DNA of 37,582 nt. Origin: Oscillospiraceae bacterium (GTDB taxonomy: Bacteria > Bacillota > Clostridia > Oscillospirales > Oscillospiraceae). Position 1 is the first letter of the stretch. Each line of letters starts with the position of its first letter. The position numbers and the translations under genes are program-made. The stretch is taken from contig JAFSAP010000049.1 in assembly GCA_017440925.1 (NCBI GenBank), positions 1 through 37,582 on the forward strand. Direction: 5' to 3'. The notes below the pieces were generated by a model. That model saw only the letters and a program-made list of their open reading frames with translations, was not told the origin of the DNA and searched no databases. Below are positions 8,608 to 23,769 of this stretch, piece by piece.

Positions 8608-8646
8608 TGTAACGGGTTTTGTAACGGGGGTATGGTAGTGTATAAT
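8608..8646 (+). promoter_or_regulatory. Direct-repeat promoter of the 8666 gene
   Basis: Two TGTAACG boxes at 8608-8614 and 8620-8626 (12-bp period) precede TATAAT at 8641-8646. The gap is 14 bp, unlike the 9 bp at 12703 and 19113. A weaker TAGTGT at 8636 would restore the 9-bp gap and leave a longer leader. The same box pair precedes the second surface gene and the sortase gene. Confidence 0.65.
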
Positions 8647-8665
8647 CACACAAGGAGGTGGGCTG

Positions 8666-9091
8666 ATGCTGGAAAAACTTTGGTGTCCTGAGAATAACCG
8701 GATCCTGGTCTGTGTGGATTCCTATCACGAAGGCATTCTGGCCGGACGGTTCTGCAATTTCCTCCAGGAAACGGAGGAATTCGATAGCCTGACCCAGCTG
8801 CTGATCCGGATCGAGGCAGCGCTGGATGAACAGCAGGCGCCCCAGTCCTATACCACCCACCGAACCTTTGCCTCTGTTCTGGAGCAGCTGGGAGAGGATC
8901 GGACAACGCCCCCCCGGAAAGGGGACTGCGCCACCTTTGAACTGAAGATCCTGTTCCGGCAGCATGCCAGCTGGCAGGGTGTGGTGGTCTGGAAGGAACA
9001 AAAGCGGGAGCAGAGTTTCCGCAGCGTTCTGGAACTGATCCACCTGATGGACAGCGCCCTACGGGCAGCGGAAAAGGAGGGCGCCGCATAA
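8666..9091 (+). CDS. Conserved hypothetical protein upstream of surface adhesin
   Basis: 141 residues, soluble, no membrane helix or signal peptide. The start at ATG 8666 follows AAGGAGG. I recall similar sequences as unnamed proteins in Clostridia, with the conserved-looking C-terminal stretch FRQHASWQGVVVWKEQK and FRSVLELIHLMDSAL, but I can assign no function. No terminator separates it from the riboswitch and thioester adhesin that follow, and no good promoter is seen there, so the adhesin is probably co-transcribed from this gene's direct-repeat promoter. The last 49 bp of this gene recur, degraded, at 12621-12668, showing that its 3' end was part of a later tandem duplication. Confidence 0.75.
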   Translation: MLEKLWCPENNRILVCVDSYHEGILAGRFCNFLQETEEFDSLTQLLIRIEAALDEQQAPQSYTTHRTFASVLEQLGEDRTTPPRKGDCATFELKILFRQHASWQGVVVWKEQKREQSFRSVLELIHLMDSALRAAEKEGAA

Positions 9092-9142
9092 GCTTTTAAA
9101 AATGGAAAATGGAACACGATGCAAACGGAAAGGATAAGGAAC

Positions 9143-9227
9143 ATCTGCTAATGGCAAACCGCCCGAAAGGACGGGACGCAAAGCTAAGGGGCCTAACCCG
9201 AAAGGCAGGGCAGCCCGGCCGCCAGAT
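9143..9227 (+). promoter_or_regulatory. Cyclic-di-GMP-I (GEMM-I) riboswitch, copy 1
   Basis: The aptamer shows the GEMM-I hallmarks: GGCAAACC, a P2 arm capped by a GAAA tetraloop, GGGACGCAAAGCTA, GGGGCCTAA and a second arm closing at GGCCGCC. P1 is ATCTG (9143-9147) with CAGAT (9223-9227). The base before GGCAAACC fits the G20 form that prefers cyclic-di-GMP rather than cGAMP, by recall of the Vc2 structure. The adhesin start is only 33 bp beyond P1, and no terminator is visible. Control is therefore likely translational; a small TTTCC...GGAAA pairing would cover part of the ribosome-binding site. Whether it switches on or off cannot be read. Confidence 0.92.
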
Positions 9228-9259
9228 TTTGATTTCCAGAAACGGGAAAGGAGATTAAA

Positions 9260-12200
9260 ATGATGGCCAAAAGAATGAAAAAATGGATTGCAACACTGCT
9301 GGTGCTGAGCATGTGTATCAGTGTGGTTGCGCTTCCCGCAGGAGCAGATGCCAGCGAAAGTGAAGCACCTCCCACAGTGACCGTGGACATCACAGATGCT
9401 GACGGCAACGTCATCGGCCAGAAGAGCACCACCACCACGACCACATCCAATGAAACACCGGGGACCTATACCCAGAATACGGACACCCAGAGCAGTTGGA
9501 GCACCCAGCAGACCGAGGGCAGCAGCAACGATCCTGTAGTTGCCGGTAATACCACCGTTACCGAAAACAACCAGGTGGTCACCGAGGTCACAGGTACCGA
9601 GCAAAAGACCGACAACATTTCCAGTGACAAGACCACCGGTGTCCAGACCTATTCCGGCAGCGTGAACGGAAATGAGACCACCACCATCACGGATACCACC
9701 ACCAAAACGACAACAACCACAGATGCGCTTCAGAGCGACAAAACGGTCACCTCCAACCCTTACACGGATAAGGAGGAGGAAGAGGAATGGTCCGGCCTGC
9801 AGCCCACCGGCCAGGGACAGTGGCAATCCACCGGCACCGAGGGCGACGGCTATGTGCAGGACGGAAAGAAGACCACCACCAACCACGGCCAGACCGCTGT
9901 GGATGTGGATAAGGATCCGCTGGATAAGACGGATGTTACCCTGCAGATGGATGCGCCCACCGGCGACCAGACAGTTGACAAAGACGCCAAGACGCTGTTC
10001 ATCAGCATTGAGGATGCCCTTGCCAATGACATTTCCTACAAAGATGGCGAGGTCCTGCAGGACGGCTCCGTTGTCAAGTATACCTATAACGGCAAAAACG
10101 AGGTGATCGGCTACACCATCACCAAGCACACCCCCACCGGCGGCACAAACAACAGTGATCCCGTGGCCGGTACGCCGGGCAAGGAACAGAAATCCGGCAG
10201 CGAAGTAAAGATCTACACCAAGCCTGCGGGTTATACCCCCGTCACCGATGCGCCCATCGTGGACAGCAACGGCAAGCAGATCGGCACCAAGACCATTGAG
10301 GAGATCCTGGATGCTGAGAAAAATGTGATCGGCTACACCATCACCGAGACGGTCGTCACCAATCCCGGCAATCTGCCTGTGCAGAGCACGGAAAATCTGA
10401 CGGTTCCCAAGCCCCACCGCACTCTGCCCACCAGACCCGTTGCGCCGGAACCCGTCACCCAGAACGGTCTGACCACCACCACCGTGGTGGAGGATATCCT
10501 TGATGGCACTGAGGTCATAGGCTACAAAACCACCGTCACCGTCACGGATGAGGATGGAAACGAAGTTTCCTCCGAAAGCGAGAGCATTTTCGGCACCGTC
10601 ACCAGCTACAGCTCTTCTCTGACCAAAACGCCCGAGCGGGATGAGGTCACCACGACCACCGTCACCACCGTTTACGGTACATTAACCACGCAGAACTATA
10701 CCATCACGACCCCCGGAACGGTCAACAATGTGAACACCCGGGATGTGAGCCAGGAGATCTACGAGCTGGTCAAGACTGACAACGGCCTGTACTTCCTGTT
10801 CGAAGGCAAAATGTATAAGGTTCAGGCCATCACCGGCGCAGACCAGACGTATCAGCATGGTTCCGTGGAGATGGAAACCCTGGAGCCCAACATCGACAGT
10901 CTGGAGCCTGGAACCAAGGACGGCACGGTCAGCAGTTCTACCCTGCTGAGGAACCCTGAGAATTTCAATCTGAGCGAAAGCATGGCCGGCATCGGCGCAG
11001 GCTATGAACTGGAATATGTGGGCTATGGCCTGGAAACTGCCATCATGGTAAACAAGAACTACAAGACCAACGCAGGCCATGTGCTGGCCCACCAGTTCAA
11101 GCTGAAGGACCGGGATGGCAACTACCACTATGTGCTCTGCGCTGACCTGGGAACCAATGCAGTCCGGGGCGCTGACTACAACATGACCAATGTGGGTTCG
11201 GCCAACTACTATGTCCGGGACGGCGCAGCAGAAAAGATCGAGGTCATCGCCATCAATGGTTACTGGGGCACCGACTCCGGAACCGGCAGCCTGGATCATG
11301 TAAAGAGCGTTCTGCGCAGCTGGCTGGAAGCCAATACCCAGCTGACCGAGGATCAGATCAACGCCCAGGTCAATGCGCTGAAGCCCGGCGAAGCCCTCAC
11401 TGCCACCCAGGCAGCGATCTGGTACTACGGCAACAGCGATGAAGGCAAGAACATGCCCGGTGATGCTGTTACCGGCGCGGTTTATAATAGTAACGGCAGT
11501 ACCCGCAGCGCAACCGCCGGAGAGGCACAGCGTGTCAACAACCTGTACCAGGCATTGCTGGCGCTGGATCCTTCCAAGGCTACCAACAATACCACGGAAC
11601 TGCTGAACACCACCAATTTTGCCACCGAGACCGAACTGGTCATCAAGGAAAAGGCCACCGAGAATGGCGCGGTCAAGACCGATGCCGATGGAAACGAGAA
11701 GTATATCACGGATCTGACCTTCAGCCTGGATGTCCGCAAGAGTGATCTGACAGGCAACCTGATCGTCAAGGTTACGGATGAGAACGGCAATGTGCTCCGC
11801 ACCGAGCAGATCGCCACCGACAGCAGCAATCTGGTGGGCAAACTGCTGGCAAATGGCAGCCGCAGTTCTACAGAGCATACCTACACCATCCGGGATCTGG
11901 AGCTGGCAGAGGGTGTGAAGATCAATCTGAACCTGTCCGGCACCCAGAACCTGGCGGAAGGCGCCTACCTGTACAGTGCAGCGGTATATTCCACCTCCCA
12001 GACCTTCATCGGCGTGGCCTCCGGCACGCAGGAAGTGAATCTGAATGTCCAGATGGAATTCAGCGTCACCGATCCCCAGGCCAAGGTAAAGCATACCACC
12101 GAGAAATGGAGCGAAAAGGAAGAAACAGAAGAATCTTTTGTCAAGGTCGATAACTACAAGCGGGAAAAGAAGGGCACTGTCTCCAGTCAGACCGTCTCTG

Positions 12201-12478
12201 TCAACACCAAGATCTACGGCACCAACGTCCAGGAGGATGTAACGGAGCAGAAGACCGTGAAGCACCGCAGCTGGCGCTCCAGCTATCTGTACAGCCTGCT
12301 GCTCGTCAACGATGAAGGCGGCGGTGGCGATGATGATCGAACCGAGATCGACGACGAAGAAGTCCCCCTGGCCAAGGCTCCCAAGACCGGCGATATCACC
12401 GCTGTTCTGGCAGCAGTCAGCTTGTTCTCCGCCGGCGGCCTGGTAACTCTGAACCGGAAGAAGAAGGAAGAAGAATAA
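9260..12478 (+). CDS. Thioester-domain (TQxA) cell-wall-anchored surface adhesin
   Basis: 1072 residues (start ATG 9260, or 9263 by comparison with the paralogue). A Sec signal peptide (KKWIATLLVLSMCISVVALP, cleavage near ADA-SES) precedes about 530 residues of Thr-rich beta repeats with recurring VIGYTIT/VIGYKTT units. A thioester domain follows at about 575-760: the only cysteine of the mature protein, Cys627 (YVLCADLG), and TQAAIW with Gln717 match the Cys-Gln thioester/TQxA family, whose members bind host proteins covalently. A beta module (780-920) shared with the next surface protein and a charged region lead to the sorting signal APKTGD (1040-1045), a hydrophobic helix and RKKKEEE. It is preceded by a GEMM-I riboswitch. 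The placement of the thioester domain far from the N-terminus is unusual. Host target unknown. Confidence 0.9.
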   Translation: MMAKRMKKWIATLLVLSMCISVVALPAGADASESEAPPTVTVDITDADGNVIGQKSTTTTTTSNETPGTYTQNTDTQSSWSTQQTEGSSNDPVVAGNTTVTENNQVVTEVTGTEQKTDNISSDKTTGVQTYSGSVNGNETTTITDTTTKTTTTTDALQSDKTVTSNPYTDKEEEEEWSGLQPTGQGQWQSTGTEGDGYVQDGKKTTTNHGQTAVDVDKDPLDKTDVTLQMDAPTGDQTVDKDAKTLFISIEDALANDISYKDGEVLQDGSVVKYTYNGKNEVIGYTITKHTPTGGTNNSDPVAGTPGKEQKSGSEVKIYTKPAGYTPVTDAPIVDSNGKQIGTKTIEEILDAEKNVIGYTITETVVTNPGNLPVQSTENLTVPKPHRTLPTRPVAPEPVTQNGLTTTTVVEDILDGTEVIGYKTTVTVTDEDGNEVSSESESIFGTVTSYSSSLTKTPERDEVTTTTVTTVYGTLTTQNYTITTPGTVNNVNTRDVSQEIYELVKTDNGLYFLFEGKMYKVQAITGADQTYQHGSVEMETLEPNIDSLEPGTKDGTVSSSTLLRNPENFNLSESMAGIGAGYELEYVGYGLETAIMVNKNYKTNAGHVLAHQFKLKDRDGNYHYVLCADLGTNAVRGADYNMTNVGSANYYVRDGAAEKIEVIAINGYWGTDSGTGSLDHVKSVLRSWLEANTQLTEDQINAQVNALKPGEALTATQAAIWYYGNSDEGKNMPGDAVTGAVYNSNGSTRSATAGEAQRVNNLYQALLALDPSKATNNTTELLNTTNFATETELVIKEKATENGAVKTDADGNEKYITDLTFSLDVRKSDLTGNLIVKVTDENGNVLRTEQIATDSSNLVGKLLANGSRSSTEHTYTIRDLELAEGVKINLNLSGTQNLAEGAYLYSAAVYSTSQTFIGVASGTQEVNLNVQMEFSVTDPQAKVKHTTEKWSEKEETEESFVKVDNYKREKKGTVSSQTVSVNTKIYGTNVQEDVTEQKTVKHRSWRSSYLYSLLLVNDEGGGGDDDRTEIDDEEVPLAKAPKTGDITAVLAAVSLFSAGGLVTLNRKKKEEE

Positions 12479-12531
12479 TTCCCATCCTCCCCCCAAAAAG
12501 CCATAAGCCATAATAAAATATCTCCCGCGCA

Positions 12532-12565
12532 GGCCGGGGCTCCCCAGGGAGCCCCGGTCATTTTG
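12532..12565 (+). terminator. Terminator of the first surface gene
   Basis: A 10-bp stem CCGGGGCTCC / GGAGCCCCGG with CCAG loop, followed by TCATTTTG. The surrounding ~75 bp, including CCATAAGCCATAATAAAATA, recurs after the second surface gene. Confidence 0.75.
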
Positions 12566-12620
12566 CTCCTGCATCAAGCGTTCTGCAGGGACGGCGTATT
12601 GCATGCATTCCCGACAGGGA

Positions 12621-12668
12621 TCTGATGGAAGTACCCCGCGGGCAACGGAAAAGGAAGGTGCCGCACAA
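12621..12668 (+). pseudogene. Remnant of the 3' end of the 8666 gene
   Basis: 48 bp similar to 9043-9091, the end of the 8666 gene: both contain CTGATGGA and then GGGCARCGGAAAAGGA, and end near GCCGCA. There is a one-base gap and no open frame. It abuts, at about 12618-12621, a segment (TGCATNCATTCNCGACAG) that also occurs at 15278-15295. It marks the junction of a tandem duplication. Confidence 0.75.
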
Positions 12669-12702
12669 AAAATTTTGAAAATTTTTTTCAAAAATGGAAA
12701 AA

Positions 12703-12736
12703 TGTAATGCATTTTGTAACGCACAGAATGTAGACT
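12703..12736 (+). promoter_or_regulatory. Direct-repeat promoter of the second surface gene
   Basis: Boxes TGTAATG (12703-12709) and TGTAACG (12715-12721) with 12-bp period, then 9 bp to TAGACT (12731-12736). The predicted start near 12743 lies just before the riboswitch. No -35 of its own is seen, which fits an activator-dependent promoter. The rest of the 12479-12872 gap holds the terminator, duplication remnant and riboswitch listed separately. Confidence 0.6.
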
Positions 12737-12749
12737 GAGCACATAAAAA

Positions 12750-12838
12750 ATATCTGTTAACGGCAAACCGCCCGAAAGGACGGGACGCAAAGCTAAGGGG
12801 CCTAACCCGAGAGGCAGGGCAGCCCGGCCGCCAGTATT
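12750..12838 (+). promoter_or_regulatory. Cyclic-di-GMP-I (GEMM-I) riboswitch, copy 2
   Basis: Nearly identical to copy 1 (9143-9227), with three differences before the 3' P1 strand: two in the 5' linker and GAAA changed to GAGA in the second arm. The GGCAAACC, GGGACGCAAAGC and GGCCTAA segments are unchanged. P1 has a bulged T on its 3' side. The coding start is 35 bp beyond it. An alternative hairpin TTTGAT...ATCAAA lies between aptamer and ribosome-binding site, possibly part of the expression platform. Confidence 0.92.
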
Positions 12839-12872
12839 TTGATCCCCAATCAAATCAAAGGAGATTAAAATT

Positions 12873-15086
12873 ATGGCTAAGAAGATTAGAAAGCTGATCG
12901 CATCCCTTCTGGTGCTGTGCATGTGCATCAGCGCAGCAACGATTTCCATTACCGCAGCTGAGGTTCCTGTGGATATCGAAACCACTGCCGGTACCGTAAG
13001 CGGTACCCAGACCACCACCGATACCTCCACCCCCAATGCAGACGGCAGCACCACCCAGACCCAGACCGTTGTCACCCATACCCCCGAAGGCGGTGTGACC
13101 TCCACTGCAGGCAACACTACCACCACCGTGGAATTCCAGGAGACCGAGACCACCACTACCCACACCGATGCCGAGGGCAATCTCATTTCGAAGAGCGGCA
13201 ATGTTGTCGGTGAGGAAACCGTCACCCAGACCACCACCACCGTTAACTCCCCCGTGGAGGAAGAGATCTACACCGGCTCCGTGGAGATCACCTTCGATGA
13301 GGACGGCAACGGCACCAGCAAGGTGGAAAGCAAGCTGCCCGAAGCACCTGCTGACGCAGAAAATGTCCAGACCGGCGAAGACAGCATCGGTTGGGAAACC
13401 ACCGAAAATGAGCCTGCCGTTCCCGGTGCAGGCAACGGCACCGATGTAAATGGTGACGACCTCGTTGACACCATCACCACCCAGACCACCACCGTCACCA
13501 CCACCACCGTTACTATCACCGACCGCACCGTGGAAGCCGACCTGGTTCCGGATTACACACTGCCTCCCGATGAGTACCATGATGTGGAGGACAGTGAAGT
13601 CCAGGGCATCGGCGATGCCGAGCTCCCCGCAGGCGAAACCTGGACAGAAGTGTCCGGCTACAAGCAGGCCCAGATCGAGAAGATCCAGGATCAGCTTTAC
13701 TTCGGCACCGAGGATGCAGCCAAGGCAGCAGCCACCCAGCTGGCACTGGACGCCATCCTCAATGGCAAGGAGATCCCTGCAGATACCGAAGCAGCCATCA
13801 AGACCGCTGCAGAGGCGCTGATCAATGCATCCATGGCAGAAGATGTGCCCACCACCTCCGAAGAGACCAAAGACCCCGAGATCACCATTTCCAATGTTTC
13901 TCTGACTGTCAACGACAAGGCAGCAGGCTATGAAAACAACACCGACTTGGATGCCACCAATGATGTCTACAACGCCTCCGTGAAGTTTGACGTGATCGTT
14001 ACCGAAGATGTCAACGGCGAACTGACCGTTGTGATCCGGCAGAATGGCGAGGAAGTTGCTTCCCAGACCCTGACTGCACTGGACAAGAACGATGACGGCT
14101 CCTACTCCGTCAACATCCGGGATATGCAGCTGCAGGAAGGCGACGAAGAAATGGCCATCGATCTGGATATCCGTCTGGACGGCGTTCAGCAGATGGCTGC
14201 CAAGCAGGTCTATTCCCACACCACTACCACAAAGGTTCCCGCTCAGAAGCCCGATGACCAGACTCTGGCTGGCTATACCTCCCATTCCGGCAACGAAAAG
14301 CAGAATGAGAACGGCAACATGATCGCTGACACCAATAGCTGGAACACCGGCTCCCACAACCAGAGCTTCACCGTGGAAGGCTCCGGCGCAAAGGTCAACA
14401 TCCAGGCAGCCGACCAGAATACCGCAGACGGCCGCGAGGTTGTGAACGTCACCACCGATAAGACCATCGAAGCAGACTACATCATCATCAAGGCAGCCAA
14501 TGGCTATATCAAGTATGCAGTTCCCGGCGGCATCCTGCATGCAGGCGTTATCTACAGTGTTGAGAATGACTACAACTCCGAAATCGGCATGACCGGCGGC
14601 ATCAGCCATGTCACCATATGGGGCAGCGGCGAAGCAGTTGACATTCCCGAGGAAGAGATCAACCGGATCATCCTGGGCGAAGCAGGCCAGCACCGTGAGG
14701 TCGTGCTGAATGCTGGTGTGAATTTAAACTTCGAAGTGGATGAAGCCATCAAGACCACCAACAGCAGTGAGGAAAAGACCACTACCACCACCCGTACCTG
14801 GGGAGATTCCTACAGCAATTCCTATGAACCCAGCGGCGGAACTCCCGATCCCGATCCTAACAACCCCGGTCCCAACAACCCTGACCCCACTCCCAACAAT
14901 CCTCCCGCACCCCAGTCCCGCATCGTAGTTCGCAATGTGGACAACGATCTGACCGAGATCGACGACGAAGAAGTCCCCCTGGCCAAAGCCCCCAAGACCG
15001 GCGATGTCACCACCGTTCTGGCAGCAGTCAGCCTGTTCTCTGCCGGCGGCCTGGTAACCCTGAACCGGAAGAAGAAGGAAGAATAA
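12873..15086 (+). CDS. Cell-wall-anchored surface protein, paralogue without thioester domain
   Basis: 737 residues from ATG 12873 after AAGGAG. A signal peptide (KLIASLLVLCMCISAATISI) precedes a Thr-rich region (about 30-230), an Ala-rich helical segment (about 265-325) and a beta module (about 335-450, VYNASVKFDVIVTEDVNGEL) that resembles the one in the preceding protein. A second beta region, a Pro/Asn linker (about 650-690, PDPDPNNPGPNNPDP) and the sorting signal APKTGD (706-711) with hydrophobic helix and RKKKEE follow. The mature part has no cysteine, so no thioester can form. The last ~35 residues nearly match those of the first protein. Riboswitch, gene and terminator are one duplicated unit. 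Function beyond a probable adhesin or stalk is unknown. Confidence 0.85.
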   Translation: MAKKIRKLIASLLVLCMCISAATISITAAEVPVDIETTAGTVSGTQTTTDTSTPNADGSTTQTQTVVTHTPEGGVTSTAGNTTTTVEFQETETTTTHTDAEGNLISKSGNVVGEETVTQTTTTVNSPVEEEIYTGSVEITFDEDGNGTSKVESKLPEAPADAENVQTGEDSIGWETTENEPAVPGAGNGTDVNGDDLVDTITTQTTTVTTTTVTITDRTVEADLVPDYTLPPDEYHDVEDSEVQGIGDAELPAGETWTEVSGYKQAQIEKIQDQLYFGTEDAAKAAATQLALDAILNGKEIPADTEAAIKTAAEALINASMAEDVPTTSEETKDPEITISNVSLTVNDKAAGYENNTDLDATNDVYNASVKFDVIVTEDVNGELTVVIRQNGEEVASQTLTALDKNDDGSYSVNIRDMQLQEGDEEMAIDLDIRLDGVQQMAAKQVYSHTTTTKVPAQKPDDQTLAGYTSHSGNEKQNENGNMIADTNSWNTGSHNQSFTVEGSGAKVNIQAADQNTADGREVVNVTTDKTIEADYIIIKAANGYIKYAVPGGILHAGVIYSVENDYNSEIGMTGGISHVTIWGSGEAVDIPEEEINRIILGEAGQHREVVLNAGVNLNFEVDEAIKTTNSSEEKTTTTTRTWGDSYSNSYEPSGGTPDPDPNNPGPNNPDPTPNNPPAPQSRIVVRNVDNDLTEIDDEEVPLAKAPKTGDVTTVLAAVSLFSAGGLVTLNRKKKEE

Positions 15087-15138
15087 TGCCCATCCTCTCC
15101 CCAAAGCCATAAGCCATAATAAAATATCTCCCGCGCAG

Positions 15139-15164
15139 GCCGGGGCTCCCCAGGGAGCCCCGGC
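15139..15164 (+). terminator. Terminator of the second surface gene
   Basis: An 11-bp stem GCCGGGGCTCC / GGAGCCCCGGC with CCAG loop. It is a duplicate of the terminator at 12532-12565 within a conserved ~75-bp 3' flank. Confidence 0.75.
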
Positions 15165-15287
15165 AGTCTTTCTGCCACAGAACCAGGAATAGGGGCAGGA
15201 GTGGCTATCACTGCGTTCGCCCGCAATCCTGTATGGATGGGTACTTCACAGCGTGCAGTTTGCCTCTGCAATTTCCTGCATTCATTC

Positions 15288-15317
15288 TCGACAGAAACCC
15301 TCCGGATATGCTACAAT
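15288..15317 (+). promoter_or_regulatory. Promoter of the GGDEF/HD-GYP gene
   Basis: TCGACA (15288-15293), 18-bp spacer, TACAAT (15312-15317), about 40 bp before the chosen start. The -35 lies in the segment shared with the duplication junction at 12601-12617. Confidence 0.6.
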
Positions 15318-15357
15318 ATATGATAATAAAACCGATCCGCCAACGGGAGGAACCACT

Positions 15358-18300
15358 ATGGACAGACATGATACTTTGCTGATCGCCTGCGGTACCAGAG
15401 AAAGCCGGGAGCAGCTGCGGAGCATCCTGGGAGAAAGCTACAATCTGCTGGAGGCGGGTAATATCCGCCAGGGAAAGCTGCTTCTGGAGCAGAACCGCAG
15501 CTGCATCGCCGCCATGATCCTGGATATTACCGCCGGTGTGGAAGTGGAGGAGGATCTTTTCCGGCAGCGTACTGACGGCCAGCATGTTGTTCCGGTCATC
15601 GTCATTACCAGAGATGACGATATTCCCACCCTGGACCGCTGCTTCTCCCTGGGCGCAGCCGATGTGATCCCTCTGGATTATGACCCCTATGCCATGCTGC
15701 ACCGCATCGAAAATATCGTGCAGCTGCATCTGCACAAGGAAAATCTGGAAGAGCTGGTGAAGGAGCAGGCGGAAATTCTTCGCCATTCCAATGAGACAAT
15801 GGTGGATGCCCTGTCCTCCATCATCGAATACCGCAGCGTGGAATCCGGCCAGCACATCCTGCGCATCCGCCACTTTACCCGGGTGCTGATGGAACAGGTG
15901 GCCGCCAACTGTCCGGAATTCGGGCTGACAGAGGAGGCCATCTCCATCATTTCCAGCGCAGCAGCGCTGCATGATGTGGGCAAGATCGGCATTCCCGATG
16001 CCATCCTCACCAAGCCCGGAAAGCTGACCGCTGAGGAATGGGAGGCCATGAAGACCCATACCCACATCGGCTGCCAGATCCTGGAGAGTTTGGGATCCAT
16101 GGGCAACGAGGAATACCTGCGGTATGCCCACAACATCTGCCATTACCACCATGAACGCTGGGATGGCGGCGGCTATCCCGAGGGATTGAAGGGAAATGAT
16201 ATCCCCATCTGTGCCCAGGTGGTGGGACTTGCGGATGTTTATGATGCACTGACCACCAAGCGGGTCTATAAGGATGCCCATGACCTGCAGACAGCCGCCA
16301 ATATGATCCTCAACGGCGAATGCGGCACTTTTTCGCCCCGGCTGCTGGAATGCTTCATACAGGTGCTTCCCAAATTTGAAGAGCTGTGCCTGGCCTATGC
16401 CGACGGCCTGTCTCCCAAAACGGAAACCTTTGATGTGACCCTGCCAAAACCCGCTGCCCTGGAGGACGGCTTTGCCCTGCAAATCATCCATGGCAAGTAC
16501 CAGTGTCTGCTGCACTATATCAATGCATTTGTGCTGGAACTTTCCGTGGATCAGGGCTACTATTTCCTGCGCTATAATCCCTATCCCGAGCTGGGCATTG
16601 TCAACCGTGCCAGCAATTATGAAGAGCTGGTGCAGATCGTTCTCGATGAGATCGTTGCGCCGGAGGACCGGCAGCGGATGCAGACGCTGATCGATACCGG
16701 TATTGAGGAATATCTCCAGGCCGGCCTGCGCCGTCAGGCGTTCCGGTTCCGGTTCCGGAAAAAGGGCGGCGGTGTGCAGCCTTATGATGTGACTCTGCTC
16801 CGGGCCAATGTGAACCAGACAGAGCGCCGCTCTCTGGCAGTGCTGTGCCGGAAAGTGAGCGATACCCTCCCCGCCAGCCAGGACGACAGGCAGATACAAC
16901 AGCCCTACAATACCAAGGAAAGTACCTACTGCTGCCGAAATGACCGGGACTTCACCCTGGTGCAGGTGGGCGACGGTGTCCATGATCTGGCAGGCTACAG
17001 CCCGGAGGATGTTTTTGGTGCTATGGGCGGACGGCTCATCGAGATCGTCCATCCCGATGACCGGGAGCTGGTGCGCACCACCTTCCGGGAGCAGCTGAAC
17101 CGGGGCACCAATGTGCAGATGGAATTCCGGGTGATCCGGAAAAATGGCCAGGTGGAATGGGTGCTGAACAAGAGCCGCCTGGTGATGGGAGAGGACGGAG
17201 AAGAATATCTTTACAGCCATCTGACGGATATCTCCTCTTCCAAGCAGGCCTATGACCTGCTGGCAAAGCGGCTGGAGCGGTATGAGATCATTCTGGCCCA
17301 GACGGAAAACGTACTTTTCGACTGGAACCTGCAGGAGGATGCCATTGCTTTCTCCGATACCTGGGAGAAGATCTTCGGCTTTATTCCCAGTGACGGCAGC
17401 GTGTGGAGAATGCTGGAAGGCGCCTCTTTCCTCCATCCCGATGACGTGCCGCTGCTGTATGACCGGATCCGGACCCTGCAGAACGGCTCGGACTTCGAAA
17501 TGCTGGAAGTGCGGATCGCCACTGCCAAGGGCCGGTATCTGTGGTGCCGTTTCCGTGCCTCTGCCATCCGGGATGAAGCGGATACGCTGATCCGGATCGT
17601 GGGTATTATCATCAATATCGATGCTGAAAAACAGGCGGCCCAGGTCCTGCAGGAACGGGCGGAACGGGATGCGCTGACCAAGCTGCTGAACAAGGATGCC
17701 GGCCGTAGGCAGGTGGAGGAATACCTGGCCCAGTTCCCCCAGGGTGTCCAGTGCGCCCTGCTGATCATCGACCTGGATAATTTTAAGCAGGTCAACGACC
17801 AGTACGGCCACCTCTTCGGAGATACGGTGCTGACCAAGGCTGCCAAGGAGATCAAAAAACTGTTCCGGGCCCAGGATATTCTGGCCCGTATCGGTGGCGA
17901 TGAATTTATGATCCTGCTGCGGGGCGTGTCCGACCGGGGACTGGTAGAATCCCGCTGCGAGCGGCTGCTGTCGGTTTTTCGCAATGCCTTCCGCAATGGC
18001 CGGGAAAAGCTGCCCATCAGCTGTTCCGTGGGCATTGCCCTGTCGCCGGAGCATGGCAGCACCTATGTGGAGCTGTTCCGCCGGGCAGACCAGGCCCTTT
18101 ACCAGGCCAAGGCCCAGGGCAAGGACAGCTATACCTTTTACAGCGACCAGGAAGCTGTCTACCTCGCCTGGAATACCCGCCTCACGGCGGTCAGCAACCG
18201 GATCGATTCGGACGACCAGCCCGGCCTGGCGGACAGCAGCCTGGTGCAGTATGCCTTCCAGAAGCTGTATGCCTCCCGGGATGTGGATGCCTCCATCAAT

Positions 18301-19077
18301 GAACTGCTGGCGCTGATCGGACGGCAGACCAATGTGAGCCGGGTCTATGTGTTTGAAAACAGCCTGGATAACAAGTATTGCTCCAATACCTATGAATGGT
18401 GCAACACCGGCATTGCCCCGGAGATCGGCAACCTGCAGGATGTGAGTTACGAAACAGATATCCCGGATTATGAGCAGAATTTCGATGAGCACGGCATTTT
18501 CTGCTGCACGGACATCGAAACCCTGCCCCGGAATCTGTATGATATTCTGGCCCCCCAGAATATCCGCTCCCTGCTGCACTGCGCCATCCGGGATAATGGT
18601 GTGTTCCGGGGCTACGTCGGCTTTGACGAATGCGTCAACAACCGGATCTGGACAATGGAGCAGATCAACCTGCTGACCTACTTCTCGGAGATGCTGTCCG
18701 TGTTTCTGCTGAAAATGCGGGCCCAGGAAAGAACGACCCGCCATGCCCAGGATCTGCATGATGTTCTGGACAGGCAGAATGCCTGGATCTATATTGTGGA
18801 TCCCGATACCCAGAAGCTGCTGTACCTCAACGACCGGATCCGGCAGTACTGTCCCAATGCCAATGTAGGCATGAACTGCCATGAGGCCCTGGGCCAGTGC
18901 GGTCATATCTGCTCTGACTGCCCCATGAAAAACCTGGTGGCAAACCAGGGCAAAAGCGTTCTGCTGACCAATCCCCGCTACGGCGGCCCGGTGCTGGCAG
19001 AATCAGCCATGATCCGATGGGAAGGAAAACCGGCCTGCATGCTTACCTACCGGAAGCTGCCGGAACTGCAGGCGTAA
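15358..19077 (+). CDS. Multidomain cyclic-di-GMP enzyme: REC-like, HD-GYP, PAS, GGDEF, GAF, PAS
   Basis: 1239 residues from ATG 15358 (GGGAGGA upstream; an in-frame extension to 15253 crosses the promoter). Residues 1-120 resemble a receiver with Asp56 but lack the usual acidic pair and conserved Lys, so it is probably a pseudo-receiver. The HD-GYP phosphodiesterase domain (about 135-340) is complete: HDVGKIGIPD at 205 and HHERWDGGGYP at 264. Two or three PAS-like domains (about 385-765) precede a GGDEF cyclase domain (768-930) with intact GGDEF (846-850) and inhibitory I-site RAQD (837-840) at the correct spacing. A GAF-like domain (950-1120) and a C-terminal PAS with a four-Cys cluster (1174, 1181, 1185, 1188) follow. 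It can potentially make and degrade cyclic-di-GMP. It stands between the riboswitch-controlled adhesins and the sortase. No membrane helix is seen. Confidence 0.92.
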   Translation: MDRHDTLLIACGTRESREQLRSILGESYNLLEAGNIRQGKLLLEQNRSCIAAMILDITAGVEVEEDLFRQRTDGQHVVPVIVITRDDDIPTLDRCFSLGAADVIPLDYDPYAMLHRIENIVQLHLHKENLEELVKEQAEILRHSNETMVDALSSIIEYRSVESGQHILRIRHFTRVLMEQVAANCPEFGLTEEAISIISSAAALHDVGKIGIPDAILTKPGKLTAEEWEAMKTHTHIGCQILESLGSMGNEEYLRYAHNICHYHHERWDGGGYPEGLKGNDIPICAQVVGLADVYDALTTKRVYKDAHDLQTAANMILNGECGTFSPRLLECFIQVLPKFEELCLAYADGLSPKTETFDVTLPKPAALEDGFALQIIHGKYQCLLHYINAFVLELSVDQGYYFLRYNPYPELGIVNRASNYEELVQIVLDEIVAPEDRQRMQTLIDTGIEEYLQAGLRRQAFRFRFRKKGGGVQPYDVTLLRANVNQTERRSLAVLCRKVSDTLPASQDDRQIQQPYNTKESTYCCRNDRDFTLVQVGDGVHDLAGYSPEDVFGAMGGRLIEIVHPDDRELVRTTFREQLNRGTNVQMEFRVIRKNGQVEWVLNKSRLVMGEDGEEYLYSHLTDISSSKQAYDLLAKRLERYEIILAQTENVLFDWNLQEDAIAFSDTWEKIFGFIPSDGSVWRMLEGASFLHPDDVPLLYDRIRTLQNGSDFEMLEVRIATAKGRYLWCRFRASAIRDEADTLIRIVGIIINIDAEKQAAQVLQERAERDALTKLLNKDAGRRQVEEYLAQFPQGVQCALLIIDLDNFKQVNDQYGHLFGDTVLTKAAKEIKKLFRAQDILARIGGDEFMILLRGVSDRGLVESRCERLLSVFRNAFRNGREKLPISCSVGIALSPEHGSTYVELFRRADQALYQAKAQGKDSYTFYSDQEAVYLAWNTRLTAVSNRIDSDDQPGLADSSLVQYAFQKLYASRDVDASINELLALIGRQTNVSRVYVFENSLDNKYCSNTYEWCNTGIAPEIGNLQDVSYETDIPDYEQNFDEHGIFCCTDIETLPRNLYDILAPQNIRSLLHCAIRDNGVFRGYVGFDECVNNRIWTMEQINLLTYFSEMLSVFLLKMRAQERTTRHAQDLHDVLDRQNAWIYIVDPDTQKLLYLNDRIRQYCPNANVGMNCHEALGQCGHICSDCPMKNLVANQGKSVLLTNPRYGGPVLAESAMIRWEGKPACMLTYRKLPELQA

Positions 19078-19112
19078 AAAATTCATAAAAAATAATTTCG
19101 GATTTGAAAAAA

Positions 19113-19146
19113 TGTAACGGGATCTGTAACGGCGGCGGTGTATACT
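19113..19146 (+). promoter_or_regulatory. Direct-repeat promoter of the sortase gene
   Basis: TGTAACG boxes at 19113-19119 and 19125-19131 (12-bp period), then 9 bp and TATACT (19141-19146). Box spacing and gap equal those before the second surface gene. Direct heptamer repeats shortly upstream of the -10 are the known layout of SARP-activated promoters. Confidence 0.68.
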
Positions 19147-19174
19147 GGAAAAAACACAGAAAAGGAGGAAAACC

Positions 19175-20017
19175 ATGGAACCAAAGGTGAAAAAATGCAT
19201 ATCTTTTGTACTGCTGGTGGTTTTCCTGGTCAGTACTGCACTTCTGCTGCGGAACGTTTTGGGCTATGGCGGCGGCAATGCCGATTATTCCGATGCGGCG
19301 GAGCTGGCCCGGCCGGGGGTTTCCCAGGAAACAGAGCCAACCCGGGAAACCGTGGCGGTAACGGTGCCCACGGAAGCGCCGGAGGAACCGGTGCTGGTGT
19401 GGGTTCCCGCGCCGCTGGAAACGGAAGATCCCAAAATGGAAAAGCTGAAGGAAACGGACTTAGATGCCCTGCGGAAGGTCAACGAAGACATTCTGGGCTG
19501 GATCCATATTCCCAGCTCCAAGATCGACTATCCCCTGCTCCAGGGCGAGGACAATGAGTATTATCTGAAGCGCACCTGGAAGGGCCACCGGAATCCTGTG
19601 GGTTCCATCTTCCTGGAGTGCAGGAACAACCCGGATTTCACCGACTGGCATACCATTATCTACGGCCACAATATGTCCGACGGCTCCATGTTTGCCACAT
19701 TGCACCGGTACAAAAAGCAGGATTACTGGGAAAAGCATCCCTATATCTACATCGTGACCGATGCCGGTGTGCTGCGCTATGAGGTGTTCTCCACCTACAC
19801 AGCCAAGGTGGACAGCAAGACCTACGGCCTCAGTTTCCGCCAGATGGAGACCCGGGAGGAATTCCTGGCCATGACGCTGGAGAAATCCCAGATCGATACC
19901 GGCATCGTTCCGGCAGTGACGGATCAGATCCTGACCCTGTCCACCTGCGGCGGCGGTGACGAAAGCCGCCGGGTGGTGCACGCCCGGATGCCTATGGTTC
20001 AGGTGGAGCTGCAATAA
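19175..20017 (+). CDS. Class B sortase
   Basis: Membrane-bound cysteine transpeptidase that cleaves a sorting motif and links proteins to the cell wall. 280 residues from ATG 19175 after AAAGGAGG. An N-terminal membrane helix (about 8-27) and an acidic Thr/Pro linker precede the catalytic domain. ILGWIHIPSSKIDYPLLQG is a class B signature. His165 (IIYGHNM), Cys258 (LTLSTCGGG) and Arg265/266 (ESRRVVHARM) form the catalytic set. The two surface proteins here end in APKTG, close to the (S/P)PxTG motif used by the Clostridioides difficile class B sortase, so they are the likely substrates (inference). Its direct-repeat promoter is shared with the surface genes. Confidence 0.93.
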   Translation: MEPKVKKCISFVLLVVFLVSTALLLRNVLGYGGGNADYSDAAELARPGVSQETEPTRETVAVTVPTEAPEEPVLVWVPAPLETEDPKMEKLKETDLDALRKVNEDILGWIHIPSSKIDYPLLQGEDNEYYLKRTWKGHRNPVGSIFLECRNNPDFTDWHTIIYGHNMSDGSMFATLHRYKKQDYWEKHPYIYIVTDAGVLRYEVFSTYTAKVDSKTYGLSFRQMETREEFLAMTLEKSQIDTGIVPAVTDQILTLSTCGGGDESRRVVHARMPMVQVELQ

Positions 20018-20047
20018 AAAAACCACCCCGGAGGAACCTCCGGGGTG
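20016..20047 (-). terminator. Terminator of the BTAD regulator gene
   Basis: A 10-bp stem CACCCCGGAG / CTCCGGGGTG with a 4-base loop. On the minus strand it is followed by seven T. It may also end the sortase transcript, though the plus-strand tail is poor in T. Confidence 0.85.
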
Positions 20048-20063
20048 ATTCGGAATAAACAGT

Positions 20064-21260
20064 TTACGGCACACAGATGCTGGGGGTCAAAGGCTGAACC
20101 ATGTAATGGATCTTTGCGGTCACATGGGGATGCTTCCGGTTGAAAGCGCCCAGAATCCGGCGGCAGACCATGCAGCTGTTTTCGTAGTTGGCATGGGGAA
20201 GCATGATGATGTACTGGGATACGCTGCACTGGGAGAAGGTATCGCCCCGGCGCAGGTTGGTGCGGATCTGTTCGCCCAGCTGCCCCATGATCCGGTGCAT
20301 GCTCCGCTTGGTCAGGGGCTTGTCCGGTGTGCCGGAAAGGGAAAGCAGCACGATGTGGGTGGCATTTCCGTTTCTCTCCATGGCCCGGCTTTCCGCAAAG
20401 CACAGAACCTTGAAATAATCGTAGTCGCAGCGCATGGCGCCGGAAATGGCCTCCGGCTCCTGAAGCTGCTCCAGAACCAGATCCATGGGCAGGGTCTTGT
20501 CGCTGAGGGTATGTACCGCATTGCGGTAGACCTTGCGGGTCTGCTCGCTGGGACGGATGCCGAAATCGTCAAACAGCCGGTGGGACAGTTCATCATACAC
20601 GGCGGCGGCAGCATCCGGATCTCCCTGGGCGGCCAGTTCCTGCATCAGCATCTGGTGCAGCGGCTCATGGTAGGGTTCCCCAGCAACAGCGCGGCGGCAC
20701 AGGCCAACGGCCTCCTGGTGGCGGCCCCGGGCGGAGAGCATAGTCGTGGTGGCCATGACGGTGGAGACATACAGGTTGTGGAAATGGGTGCTGATGGGAA
20801 TGACCCAGGGATCCGAGGACTGCTTTTCCAGAAAATCCCCGCCATACAGGGAAAGGGCTTCCAGATAGGCCTTCAGCCGGTCCTCCTCCCGGTCATATTC
20901 TGCGGTGCACAGGGAATCGAAGGTTTCGGAGTCGATGACCAGAGGAATATCGGGATTCCAAAGATAGCCCCCCTCCTTGCGGAGGATCAGGTCGTGGCCT
21001 GCCGTGGGCCAGAGCTGGTTCAGCGCAGACCGTACCCGGTGGAAAGAGATCCGCAGGGCGTTTTCCGGATTGCTGCTGGCGGGCTCCTCGCCCCAGAGCA
21101 GTTCGATCAGTTTTTTCTGGGACACGATGCGGCCCCGGTGGCACAGCAGGTAGGCAAGCAGCGCCCAGACCTTTCGGGTGCGGTTGTCGGAATCGGATAT
21201 TTTTACATCTCCCGCAGTCAGGGAGAAGCTGCCAAGCATTTGCACGTAGATAGGTTCCAT
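20064..21260 (-). CDS. BTAD (SARP-like) transcriptional regulator with degenerate GGDEF domain
   Basis: 398 residues from ATG 21260; ATG 21266 is too close to the AAGAGG site. Residues 1-95 form an OmpR-type winged helix (TRKVWALLAYLLCHRGRIV, LIELLWGEEPASSNPENALR). Residues 100-245 form the bacterial transcriptional activation domain (LSLYGGDFLEKQSSDPWV, LCRRAVAGEPYHEPLHQML). The last ~130 residues look like a GGDEF domain in which the signature is replaced by SVSQY (346-350). The preceding RRGD (337-340) keeps the exact RxxD-x5 spacing of the cyclic-di-GMP I-site. It should lack cyclase activity but might bind the nucleotide. It is convergent with the sortase gene. The direct repeats upstream of three locus genes are its candidate targets. 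Ligand binding and targets are inference. Confidence 0.85.
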   Translation of the reverse strand: MEPIYVQMLGSFSLTAGDVKISDSDNRTRKVWALLAYLLCHRGRIVSQKKLIELLWGEEPASSNPENALRISFHRVRSALNQLWPTAGHDLILRKEGGYLWNPDIPLVIDSETFDSLCTAEYDREEDRLKAYLEALSLYGGDFLEKQSSDPWVIPISTHFHNLYVSTVMATTTMLSARGRHQEAVGLCRRAVAGEPYHEPLHQMLMQELAAQGDPDAAAAVYDELSHRLFDDFGIRPSEQTRKVYRNAVHTLSDKTLPMDLVLEQLQEPEAISGAMRCDYDYFKVLCFAESRAMERNGNATHIVLLSLSGTPDKPLTKRSMHRIMGQLGEQIRTNLRRGDTFSQCSVSQYIIMLPHANYENSCMVCRRILGAFNRKHPHVTAKIHYMVQPLTPSICVP

Positions 21261-21309
21261 CCTCATACCTCTTTTCCAAAAGAGCTGTTCTTAAAACGGT
21301 AGTATGATT

Positions 21310-21337
21310 ATTATAGCATAATCCGCAAGGGGTGCAA
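21310..21337 (-). promoter_or_regulatory. Promoter of the BTAD regulator gene
   Basis: On the minus strand, TTGCAC (21332-21337), 16-bp spacer, TATAAT (21310-21315). It has no TGTAACG boxes, so self-regulation through them is not suggested. Confidence 0.75.
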
Positions 21338-21385: not shown

Positions 21386-22399
21386 ATGGTAAAACACAAA
21401 ACGCTTTTGGCGCTGCTGCTGACGGCAGCGGTGCTTTCCGGCTGTACAGCCCAGGCAGCGCAGGAAGAAGTCCGGCAGGAAACGGCAGTTCCGGTTCAGA
21501 CCGAAGAAACACTGCCCCCCGAAACCCTGCCGCCGGAGACCCTTCCCGTGGCCCAGGAGGCCCAGGCCATGGCAGAGGAGCCCCCACCCCCGGCGGTGCC
21601 GGTGGTGCTGGAACCGGTGGCCTCCGGGGAAAAGACCGACCGCTGTGAAACTGCCGAGGTGGATTATTCCCATACCGGAGACGGCTATGTGATGGTGCGC
21701 TTCACCGGAGATACGGAAAAACGCCTGAAAGTACTGCTGAAGGGCCCCACTACTACCTATAATTATAATCTTCCCAAGGGAGAATGGACGGTGTTCCCCC
21801 TGTCCGACGGCAGCGGCGCCTATCAGCTGGGGATTTACCAGAATGTGTCCGGCAAGCAGTATGCTACTGTGATGGTAACAGAGTTTTCGGCAGAGCTGAC
21901 GGATGAATTTGCCCCCTTCCTGCGGCCTAACCAGTATGTAAACTTCTCGGAAGCCACCAGGGCCGTGGCCAAGGGCCTGGAGGTGACGGAGGGCCGGGAG
22001 CAGCCTCTGGAAAAGGTAGAGGCAGTCTATGATTTCGTAGTGGCCGCCCTCAGCTATGACGATGAGAAGGCATCCACTGTCAAAAGCGGCTATCTTCCGG
22101 TGCTGGATGAGGTGCTGGAAAGCGGCAAGGGCATCTGCTTCGACTATGCCGCACTGATGACCGCCATGCTGCGCAGCCAGGAGATCCCCTGCAAGCTGGT
22201 GGTGGGCTATGCTGGTTCTACTTACCATGCCTGGATCAGCGTCTGGACAGAGGAAAGCGGCTGGGTGGACGGTGCTATTTTCTTCGACGGCCACCAGTGG
22301 AAACGGATGGATCCCACCTTTGCATCCTCCTCCGGCGGCGATGAAAAGATCCTGGACTTTATTCAGAACGGAAAATACAAGGTCAAGTACCTCTATTAA
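21386..22399 (+). CDS. Lipoprotein with transglutaminase-like domain
   Basis: 337 residues. A lipoprotein signal peptide ends in the lipobox LSGC (Cys20). A Pro/Glu-rich spacer follows (about 21-85), then a beta domain, and a C-terminal transglutaminase-like/protease fold. The catalytic triad is visible: Cys251 in GKGICFDYAALM, His281 in STYHAWISV and Asp309 in RMDPTFA. Such domains cleave or cross-link proteins or peptides outside the cell; the substrate is not known. It is the first gene of the pilus-like operon: pilC starts 36 bp after its stop without a terminator. The start (ATG 21386) follows GGGAGGGG. Its promoter overlaps the divergent BTAD promoter region but is not clear. Confidence 0.87.
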   Translation: MVKHKTLLALLLTAAVLSGCTAQAAQEEVRQETAVPVQTEETLPPETLPPETLPVAQEAQAMAEEPPPPAVPVVLEPVASGEKTDRCETAEVDYSHTGDGYVMVRFTGDTEKRLKVLLKGPTTTYNYNLPKGEWTVFPLSDGSGAYQLGIYQNVSGKQYATVMVTEFSAELTDEFAPFLRPNQYVNFSEATRAVAKGLEVTEGREQPLEKVEAVYDFVVAALSYDDEKASTVKSGYLPVLDEVLESGKGICFDYAALMTAMLRSQEIPCKLVVGYAGSTYHAWISVWTEESGWVDGAIFFDGHQWKRMDPTFASSSGGDEKILDFIQNGKYKVKYLY

Positions 22400-22435
22400 A
22401 TACATCCTTCCCAGGAAAGACAGGGAGCGGTTTAC

Positions 22436-23479
22436 ATGAAAAGAAAACAACTGACCCAGGCCCAGACGGCTGAGTTCTGCAGCGGCTTTGCGCTGCTGCT
22501 CCACAGCGGCCTTGGCCTGGGGGACAGCGCCTGGCTTCTGGAGCAGGAGGCGGCGGGCAGTCAGAAAGAAATACTGGGCCGGATGGGCCGCGCTCTGGAC
22601 GCAGGCACCACCCTGTCTGATGCCATGGAAGAAACCGGCTGTTTTCCCGGCTATGTACCTGCCATGACCCGGATCGGTGAACAGACCGGCCGTCTGGAGC
22701 AGACGCTTCAGGCTTTGGCGGATTATTATACGGAAAATGACCGGACGGTGCGGCAGCTGAAAAACACCCTTGCCTATCCTTCCGTGATCCTGCTGCTGAT
22801 GCTCCTTGTCATCGGTGTGCTGCTGGTGAAGGTGCTGCCGGTGTTCGACAGCGTCTATGCCTCCATGGGCAGCCGCCTTACGGGGCTTTCTGCGGGATTG
22901 CTGTACCTGGGCCAGCTGCTGAAAGGTGCGCTTCCGGTGCTGCTGGCAGTGCTGGTTCTGGGTTTTGCCGGGGTGCTGGCGGTGAGCCTCTGTGGGCCCC
23001 TGCGGGAAAAAGCAGCCGGTGTCTGGCAGCGCTGGTTTGCAGACCGGGGCATTGCCCGGAAATTCAGCAATGCCCGGTTTGCCCAGGGCCTTGCCATGGG
23101 CCTTTCCAGCGGCCTGCCCCTGTCGCAGGCGGCAGAACTGGCCCAGATGCTGCTGCAGGAAAATCCCGGCGCCGCCAGGAGGGCGGCAGCCTGCCGGGAA
23201 GCGCTGGAGCAGGAGCGTCCCCTTTCCGATGCGCTGCAGGCAGGGGATTTGCTGCCTGGCTGGGCATCCCGGATGGTTTCCGCCGGTATTCGGGGCGGCA
23301 GCGGCGACCGGGTGCTGGAGGAAGTGGCCCGGCGGATGATGGAGGAGGCAAGAGCCTCCCTGGAAGAAACGGCGGCGAAGGTGGAGCCTGCCATGGTGCT
23401 GGTCTGCTCCGTGCTGGTGGGCATCATTCTGCTGTCCACCATGCTGCCGCTGATGAACATTATGGCGGCCATTGGGTGA
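22436..23479 (+). CDS. Type II secretion/type IV pilus assembly protein GspF/PilC
   Basis: Inner-membrane platform protein of type IV pilus and type II secretion machines. 347 residues with the two-fold GspF repeat: the first half has FALLLHSGLGLGDS, FPGYVPAMTRIGEQTGRLEQ and ALADYYTEND, followed by membrane helices (about 115-140). The second half has FAQGLAMGLSSGLPLSQAAE and LPGWASRMVSAGIRGGSGD, with a final helix near the C-terminus (VLVCSVLVGIILLSTMLPL). Slightly short against about 400 residues for classical PilC. The start ATG 22436 follows GGGAGCGG. It is embedded in a compact operon that ends with PilT. Confidence 0.92.
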   Translation: MKRKQLTQAQTAEFCSGFALLLHSGLGLGDSAWLLEQEAAGSQKEILGRMGRALDAGTTLSDAMEETGCFPGYVPAMTRIGEQTGRLEQTLQALADYYTENDRTVRQLKNTLAYPSVILLLMLLVIGVLLVKVLPVFDSVYASMGSRLTGLSAGLLYLGQLLKGALPVLLAVLVLGFAGVLAVSLCGPLREKAAGVWQRWFADRGIARKFSNARFAQGLAMGLSSGLPLSQAAELAQMLLQENPGAARRAAACREALEQERPLSDALQAGDLLPGWASRMVSAGIRGGSGDRVLEEVARRMMEEARASLEETAAKVEPAMVLVCSVLVGIILLSTMLPLMNIMAAIG

Positions 23480-23483
23480 GCGT

Positions 23484-23768: not shown

Positions 23769-23769
23769 T

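Follow-up and report, generated by a model that had tools for sequence, protein, structure and literature searches.

Organization of the locus

The window analysed here is a stretch of 37,582 nt from an Oscillospiraceae bacterium (GCA_017440925.1, contig JAFSAP010000049.1), whose assembled genome is 68% complete. Positions 8608 to 21337 of this window hold a locus in which two class I cyclic-di-GMP (c-di-GMP) riboswitch aptamers (GEMM-I) lie each directly 5' of a gene for an anchored surface protein, together with genes for a protein with HD-GYP and GGDEF domains, a class B sortase and a SARP-like regulator containing a BTAD domain (Table 1). These parts had been named in an initial annotation of the DNA and were confirmed by model scores and motif reading. 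A leader open reading frame (ORF; 8666-9091), a repeated promoter signature, a thioester domain in the first surface protein and a pilus-like cluster (21386-26115) are additional to that annotation. We consider it probable that the locus is a conserved surface-adhesion module with two stacked controls, a SARP-like promoter and a translational ON riboswitch.

Table 1. Features of the locus and its flank, with positions in the window.
Feature	Position	Strand	Remarks
Promoter signature 1	8608..8641	+	TGTAAC at 8608 and 8620; -10-like TAGTGT at 8636 (alternative TATAAT at 8641); precedes the leader ORF
Leader ORF, 141 aa	8666..9091	+	Uncharacterised conserved family; between promoter signature 1 and aptamer 1
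c-di-GMP-I (GEMM-I) riboswitch aptamer 1	9143..9226	+	RF01051, 64.1 bits (cut-off 35)
Predicted expression platform 1	9226..9261	+	12-bp helix 9226-9237 / 9250-9261 hiding the Shine-Dalgarno (SD) sequence
Thioester-domain adhesin (adhesin 1), APKTG anchor	9260..12478	+	Start possibly 9263; Pfam thioester domain
Promoter signature 2	12703..12736	+	TGTAAT/TGTAAC repeats; -10-like TAGACT; precedes aptamer 2
c-di-GMP-I riboswitch aptamer 2	12752..12835	+	RF01051, 62.1 bits (cut-off 35)
Predicted expression platform 2	12836..12871	+	Helix 12836-12847 / 12860-12871, one mismatch; minimum-energy fold
Second anchored surface protein (adhesin 2), APKTG	12873..15086	+	Ends apparently duplicated from the first unit
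REC-like, HD-GYP, PAS, PAS, GGDEF protein	15253..19077	+	REC-like part below cut-off
Promoter signature 3	19113..19146	+	-10 TATACT; precedes the sortase
Class B sortase	19175..20017	+	TIGR03064, 193.9 bits (cut-off 153.75); GHN, LSTC and RRV motifs
SARP-like regulator	20064..21266	-	Winged helix, BTAD, degenerate GGDEF (SVSQY); I-site-like RRGD at residues 339-342
Transglutaminase-like predicted lipoprotein	21386..22399	+	Heads the pilus-like cluster; lipoprotein signal by our reading
Type IV pilus-like cluster	22436..26115	+	T2SSF 22436-23479; small ORFs including DUF4860 23770-24252; T2SSE/PilT-like ATPase 24895-26115

Both surface proteins are predicted to be secreted, and their C-terminus consists of EEVPLAKAPKTGD followed by a hydrophobic stretch and the basic tail KKKEE. 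LPXTG as such was rejected as the sorting motif, which reads APKTG(D); the NCBIfam anchor models scored below cut-off (38.1 and 40.3 bits against 48), and the anchor motifs of relatives are VPKTG, LPKTG and NPKTG. The thioester domain of adhesin 1 was recognised by PF08341 with 29.3 bits (cut-off 22), with Cys627 and the motif TQAAIW at residue 716, and the same protein reached 22.4 bits against TIGR03934, below the cut-off of 30.4. No Pfam domain above cut-off was found in the second protein. The locus sortase was assigned to class B; SrtB is the partner sortase of the riboswitch-controlled surface proteins of Clostridioides difficile.

The two adhesin units are similar to each other around the aptamer (117 nt, 85% identical), at the 3' end (142 nt, 92%) and in the terminator region (61 nt, 100%). 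The 3' ends of the adhesin genes together with their terminators, at 12335-12557 and 14946-15163, are 92-100% identical, pointing to recent duplication or conversion.

In the HD-GYP/GGDEF protein, for which we read the ATG at 15358 as the likelier start, the motifs HDVGK, HHERWDGGGYP and GGDEF are intact and RAQD occurs at I-site spacing, while the receiver-like N-terminus gave 20.5 bits, below the Pfam cut-off of 30.2. The protein has the motifs of a putative phosphodiesterase and a putative cyclase, and either activity, breaking or making c-di-GMP, may predominate. The idea, present in the initial annotation, that one locus makes, degrades and reads the c-di-GMP signal is consistent with these intact motifs.

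Conservation of the gene set in related genomes

Conservation was analysed in the best 80 of 176 relatives of the leader ORF from a species-genome collection, with flanks of up to 10 kb. Going by their titles, most of these loci stem from gut metagenomes of Oscillospiraceae; some belong to Lachnospiraceae and other Clostridia. In 42 of the 80 loci a GEMM-I motif followed the leader ORF on the same strand at a distance of at most 400 bp; L164 also has the riboswitch and escaped this count, its ORF call being over-long. The flanks contained a BTAD gene in 43 loci, a sortase in 19 and an HD-GYP/GGDEF gene (more than 400 bits) in 18, as well as the lipoprotein (32), PilC-like (31) and PilT-like (27) genes of the pilus-like cluster. 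GEMM-I, BTAD, sortase and HD-GYP occurred all together in seven loci (L139, L140, L142, L144, L146, L160 and L204). This indicates that the gene set is conserved in Oscillospiraceae and relatives. A search of related genomes for the set had been proposed with the initial annotation, which took a lack of conservation as speaking against it; since the set is conserved, that objection does not arise.

The leader ORF defines a conserved, uncharacterised protein family. Its members, of which one scan gave 176, are about 140 aa long, bear the signatures LFRQ[HN]ASWQG and FRSVLEL and are often encoded just 5' of a GEMM-I motif. At E<=0.1 no Pfam family matched more than one of 80 members, the lowest E-value being 0.0071; among solved structures the top match had an E-value of 0.061.

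Within the genus of the window organism (136 genomes), BTAD was detected at E<=1e-25 in 17 genomes, 11 of them with a close match (E<1e-100), and the leader ORF at E<=1e-5 in 14, ten of them close (E<1e-50). Every one of the ten genomes with a close leader ORF also has a close BTAD (hypergeometric p 2.6e-14, ignoring relatedness). Outside the genus, BTAD was present in 8/8 genomes checked, with 42-54% identity; five of these eight were previously known to carry it.

Some of these data temper the picture of a conserved module. At least eight of the 80 loci belong to the window's own genus, and the sortase is missing from most of the fetched flanks, many of which are cut by contig ends, as often happened to the flanks of the 80 loci in general. 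The term "self-contained", used in the initial annotation, was too strong, for some relatives scatter parts of the module or are without them. In two genomes of the same genus (G225 and G255) one contig carries the BTAD and pilus genes and another the HD-GYP gene, leader ORF, riboswitch and adhesin; the fetched stretches showed no sortase. In four others (G177, G198, G269 and G278) the leader ORF and BTAD are adjacent, and no RF01051 match was found.

A direct-repeat promoter signature

The three promoter signatures of the locus follow the pattern TGTAAC-N6-TGTAAC-N10-TAnnnT, in which the repeats are 12 bp apart and a -10-like hexamer follows 10 bp on. With at most one mismatch this pattern occurs three times in the assembled genome, as does TGTAACG-N5-TGTAACG at the same tolerance, all of them within this locus. 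Across the 1.21 Mb of the 80 loci there were 70 sites differing from TGTAAC-N6-TGTAAC at no more than one position, against nine for the reversed pattern. Fifty-one of the 70 sites precede the leader ORF (in 50 of the 80 loci), three a sortase (L140, L142 and L146) and three a GEMM-I motif, and 13 precede nothing labelled; three of these 13 (L150, L164 and L167) lie just 5' of the profile-matched part of an over-long leader-ORF call. An extended TGnTAtaaT is present at a fixed distance in most of the 51 leader-ORF sites. The longer pattern gave 25 sites in 17 genomes selected for carrying the leader ORF or BTAD. Once the window's own second site was left out, 22 of the remaining 24 had a leader ORF or GEMM motif within 1.5 kb downstream, one had the window's sortase there and one a GGDEF gene. 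The form TGWAAC plus -10, matched exactly, was found in 7/11 close-BTAD genomes of the genus and in 2/125 of the others (p 7.7e-8).

SARP binding sites are described, in the accessible part of PMC10936776, as direct repeats with a period of 11 or 22 bp whose 3' repeat lies 8 bp from the -10. Counting the repeat as TGTAACCG makes the gap to the -10 in the window 8 bp too. The promoter signature strengthens the notion of a SARP-like regulator put forward in the initial annotation, and we infer that the BTAD protein, whose binding is putative, is most likely the activator of the TGTAAC-repeat promoters.

Several results weigh against this assignment. The repeat period is 12 bp, not 11 or 22 as in SARP sites, and for this reason, and with its binding putative, the regulator is termed SARP-like rather than SARP. 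The short repeat, matched exactly over 12 positions, does not track BTAD, occurring in 15/136 genus genomes (3/11 with a close BTAD and 12/125 others), and its reversed control matches more often than the repeat itself. The TGWAAC plus -10 form was picked after the relatives had been seen; with one mismatch allowed, it was found in 8/11 close-BTAD genomes and 16/125 others, the reversed control being frequent as well. The exceptions to the exact match, with a site and no close BTAD, are G191 and G256. Conversely, G272 has BTAD and neither a close leader ORF nor a site.

Further sites were seen at other positions. A fourth, weaker site with TGWAAC is present in the window organism's own genome (contig C15:2893-2926, L285), 5' of an ORF of 365 aa that begins like a signal peptide and may be a fourth target. 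In G256 (C40:2550-2583, L275) an exact signature lies 5' of a secreted-looking protein in a genome with no BTAD match at E<=1e-20, either a counter-example or an assembly gap. Signatures were also found 5' of LPXTG-ended proteins or a GEMM motif in Pseudoflavonifractor phocaeensis An901 and Flavonifractor sp. An100 (L256 and L258).

Riboswitch aptamers and predicted expression platforms

No RF01051 match other than the two aptamers was found in the assembled genome, at its 68% completeness. GEMM-I as such is common, scoring above cut-off in 42/150 genomes drawn from the family and matching RF01051 in 11/136 genomes of the genus. Both aptamers have a G before CAAA, which we take to be linked to selectivity for c-di-GMP as opposed to cGAMP. 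3' of each aptamer a U-rich strand pairs with the ribosome-binding site and the bases preceding the start codon. In switch 1 this platform helix shares 9226-9230 with the 3' strand of the aptamer's P1 helix (P1, 9140-9147 / 9223-9230), and in switch 2 it shares 12836-12840 with that strand. By our reading of the helix listing for the relatives, comparable SD-hiding helices exist in most of them, with letters changed yet still pairing; for platform 2, the top helix in that listing differs from the minimum-energy helix given in Table 1.

Covariation of both helices was assessed by permutation of their arms among sequences. For the SD helix, own arms scored 18.84 and permuted arms on average 16.15 (sd 0.43), and for P1 the values were 14.10 and 12.62 (sd 0.31); none of 5000 permutations reached the observed value in either case. 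The SD-helix test covered 46 of the 47 sequences used for P1, L189 being left out for having no SD by the rule used, and two minus-strand aptamers of L159 were left out of both tests. Since the covarying helix hides the ribosome-binding site and overlaps P1, translational ON control is predicted. The predicted fold of the free RNA agrees with a closed state, burying the SD with an unpaired probability of at most 0.01 in switch 1; in switch 2 a single base out of the four is open. A transcription-terminator platform was considered and rejected: from either aptamer to its start codon the scan showed no terminator on the plus strand, and the helix there covers the ribosome site.

Other features of the folds run counter to an ON switch or soften the covariation. 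The permutation tests ignore relatedness, and near-duplicate rows (L161/L162 and L163/L201) were included. The SD-helix effect is modest (18.84 against 16.15) because arms from different sequences pair too, and P1 is weak in some sequences (L213 and L182). In the ligand-free folding model, the P1 state costs about 11 kcal/mol in switch 1 and about 9 kcal/mol in switch 2, and when P1 was forced the SD and start codon opened only partly in switch 1 and stayed mostly closed in switch 2. Because of this result the polarity has to be inferred; ON is the most likely polarity for both switches, and folding backs it only partly.

The BTAD regulator

The regulator matched PF03704 with 74.5 bits and PF00486 with 35 bits, both above cut-off, and the profile built from 42 sequences of its family matched AfsR over residues 32-251 (8hvr, 9.6e-16) and a diguanylate cyclase over residues 289-392 (3ign, 1.2e-5), bearing out the pseudo-GGDEF domain reported initially. 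No second BTAD-like protein was found in the assembled genome by protein search at E<=0.001. The degenerate GGDEF region reads RRGD-TFSQC-SVSQY, with the I-site RxxD five residues before the lost motif. As the GGDEF motif has become SVSQY, catalysis is unlikely. R339, G341 and D342 (RxGD) are invariant in 42/42 aligned proteins, among 17 invariant columns overall. I-sites bind c-di-GMP, and the aspartate kept here may in addition contribute to the structure of GGDEF folds. With the I-site-like RxGD kept throughout the family, c-di-GMP may act on both the promoter and the RNA, and c-di-GMP control of the BTAD protein is put forward as a hypothesis from its sequence.

Extended further, this suggests a tentative proposal that may well prove wrong: the BTAD protein would represent a novel type of transcription factor that responds to c-di-GMP, namely a SARP-type activator in which a degenerate GGDEF domain senses the messenger through the retained I-site. 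Together with the riboswitches it would form a coherent feed-forward gate, in which covalent adhesins appear only once a single messenger has acted first at the promoter and next on the mRNA made from it. The small leader protein would be an additional regulator. SARP-type activators are described as activators of antibiotic biosynthesis in the accessible part of PMC10936776; if the degenerate GGDEF domain does bind c-di-GMP, a branch of this group beyond the actinomycetes would respond to a second messenger.

Proposed mechanism and alternative explanations

In the mechanism that we favour, the two TGTAAC direct repeats upstream of the -10 would be bound by a SARP-like activator, for which the BTAD protein of the locus is the likeliest candidate, and this would turn on the sortase, adhesin 2 and the leader ORF together with adhesin 1. 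Without c-di-GMP the transcripts would stay silent, the helix after each GEMM-I aptamer hiding the ribosome-binding site; c-di-GMP would stabilise P1, which takes bases from the SD-hiding helix, so that translation could start. The sortase would then anchor the adhesins, and the intact thioester motif of adhesin 1 would be suited to covalent attachment. The HD-GYP/GGDEF protein may set the c-di-GMP level locally, with the pilus-like cluster as a possible partner.

One question is whether the switches might work in the opposite sense, c-di-GMP favouring the fold with the hidden ribosome-binding site and repressing the adhesins, as with class I in C. difficile. There, class I switches are described as uniformly OFF in the accessible part of PMC6200980, and in the window the folds with forced P1 leave the SD partly paired in switch 1 and mostly paired in switch 2. 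Against this, the 3' strand of P1 and the SD-hiding strand have five bases in common in both switches and both helices covary, so the two should partly exclude each other; an adhesin with its sortase fits high c-di-GMP; and in Bacillus thuringiensis a collagen adhesin is under the class I switch Bc2, which is ON (PMC4933901, accessible part). OFF control is unlikely on this evidence. It is also conceivable, if rather doubtful, that another regulator serves the promoter repeats and that the BTAD protein acts only on the neighbouring pilus cluster, which BTAD adjoins in many relatives; the exact sites of G256 and G191, which have no BTAD match at E<=1e-20, would be accounted for in this way. Such a division of labour is harder to reconcile with the close BTAD in all ten genus genomes with a close leader ORF and its presence in 8/8 genomes outside the genus, with its position directly adjoining the unit of site and leader ORF in four same-genus genomes, with the SARP-like site geometry (PMC10936776, accessible part) and with the lack of a second BTAD-like match at E<=0.001 in the assembled genome.

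A chance gathering of ordinary c-di-GMP and surface genes, without joint regulation, would be in keeping with the frequency of GEMM-I in the family (42/150 genomes) and with the gene order and content, which vary among relatives. It was rejected as very improbable, since the synteny in the 80 loci, recurring in many genomes, and the placement of the promoter signature speak against it, as does the riboswitch position just 3' of the leader ORF. The module with stacked promoter and riboswitch control offers a testable circuit by which a group of gut Clostridia may decide on attachment: it specifies a promoter code and a switch polarity, and it names a candidate sensor.

Relation to known systems

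No description of this module was found in the open-access papers searched, subscription papers and preprints being outside the search. The likeness to C. difficile, pointed out in the initial annotation, is right in outline: there too, c-di-GMP riboswitches precede sortase-dependent adhesins, and type IV pili are under the same signal (CD630_28310, CD630_32460, the protease ZmpI and the type IV pili; PMC6200980, accessible part). It does not extend to the switch class, for the adhesins of C. difficile are under class II switches, which are ON, with class I being OFF, both described as transcriptional (PMC6200980 and PMC11477304, accessible parts), whereas in the window the adhesins follow class I aptamers, the platform is a predicted helix over the ribosome site, the promoter is shared and SARP-like, and the parts are clustered. 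In B. thuringiensis, a class I switch (Bc2) precedes the gene of an anchored adhesin, the LPXTG collagen adhesin cap, LPXTG being linked to sortase A; this switch is ON there, as is predicted here, and works through a terminator and antiterminator (PMC4933901, accessible part). The platform predicted in the window covers the ribosome site instead; neither a shared direct-repeat promoter nor a BTAD gene is mentioned in the accessible part of that paper.

The regulator resembles the SARP family (AfsR), on the partial view given by the source cited above for SARP sites, in its winged helix and BTAD homologous to AfsR and in the direct repeats upstream of the -10. It differs in the 12-bp period, in a C-terminal degenerate GGDEF domain instead of NOD/TPR, in its clostridial host and in the association with surface rather than antibiotic genes. 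With the degenerate-GGDEF c-di-GMP receptors of the I-site type it shares the loss of the catalytic motif and the RxGD kept in 42/42 sequences of its family, whereas here the domain is fused to a SARP-type DNA-binding half and c-di-GMP binding is putative. By analogy, the module may act like the riboswitch-adhesin systems of C. difficile and B. thuringiensis, differing from them in switch class or platform and in the SARP-like promoter layer.

The pilus-like cluster

Next to the regulator gene, at higher coordinates and on the opposite strand, lies the pilus-like cluster, in which the real start of the T2SSE/PilT-like ATPase is probably later than that of the ORF in Table 1. In several relatives, both from the same genus and from others, a cluster headed by the transglutaminase-like gene is likewise divergent from BTAD.

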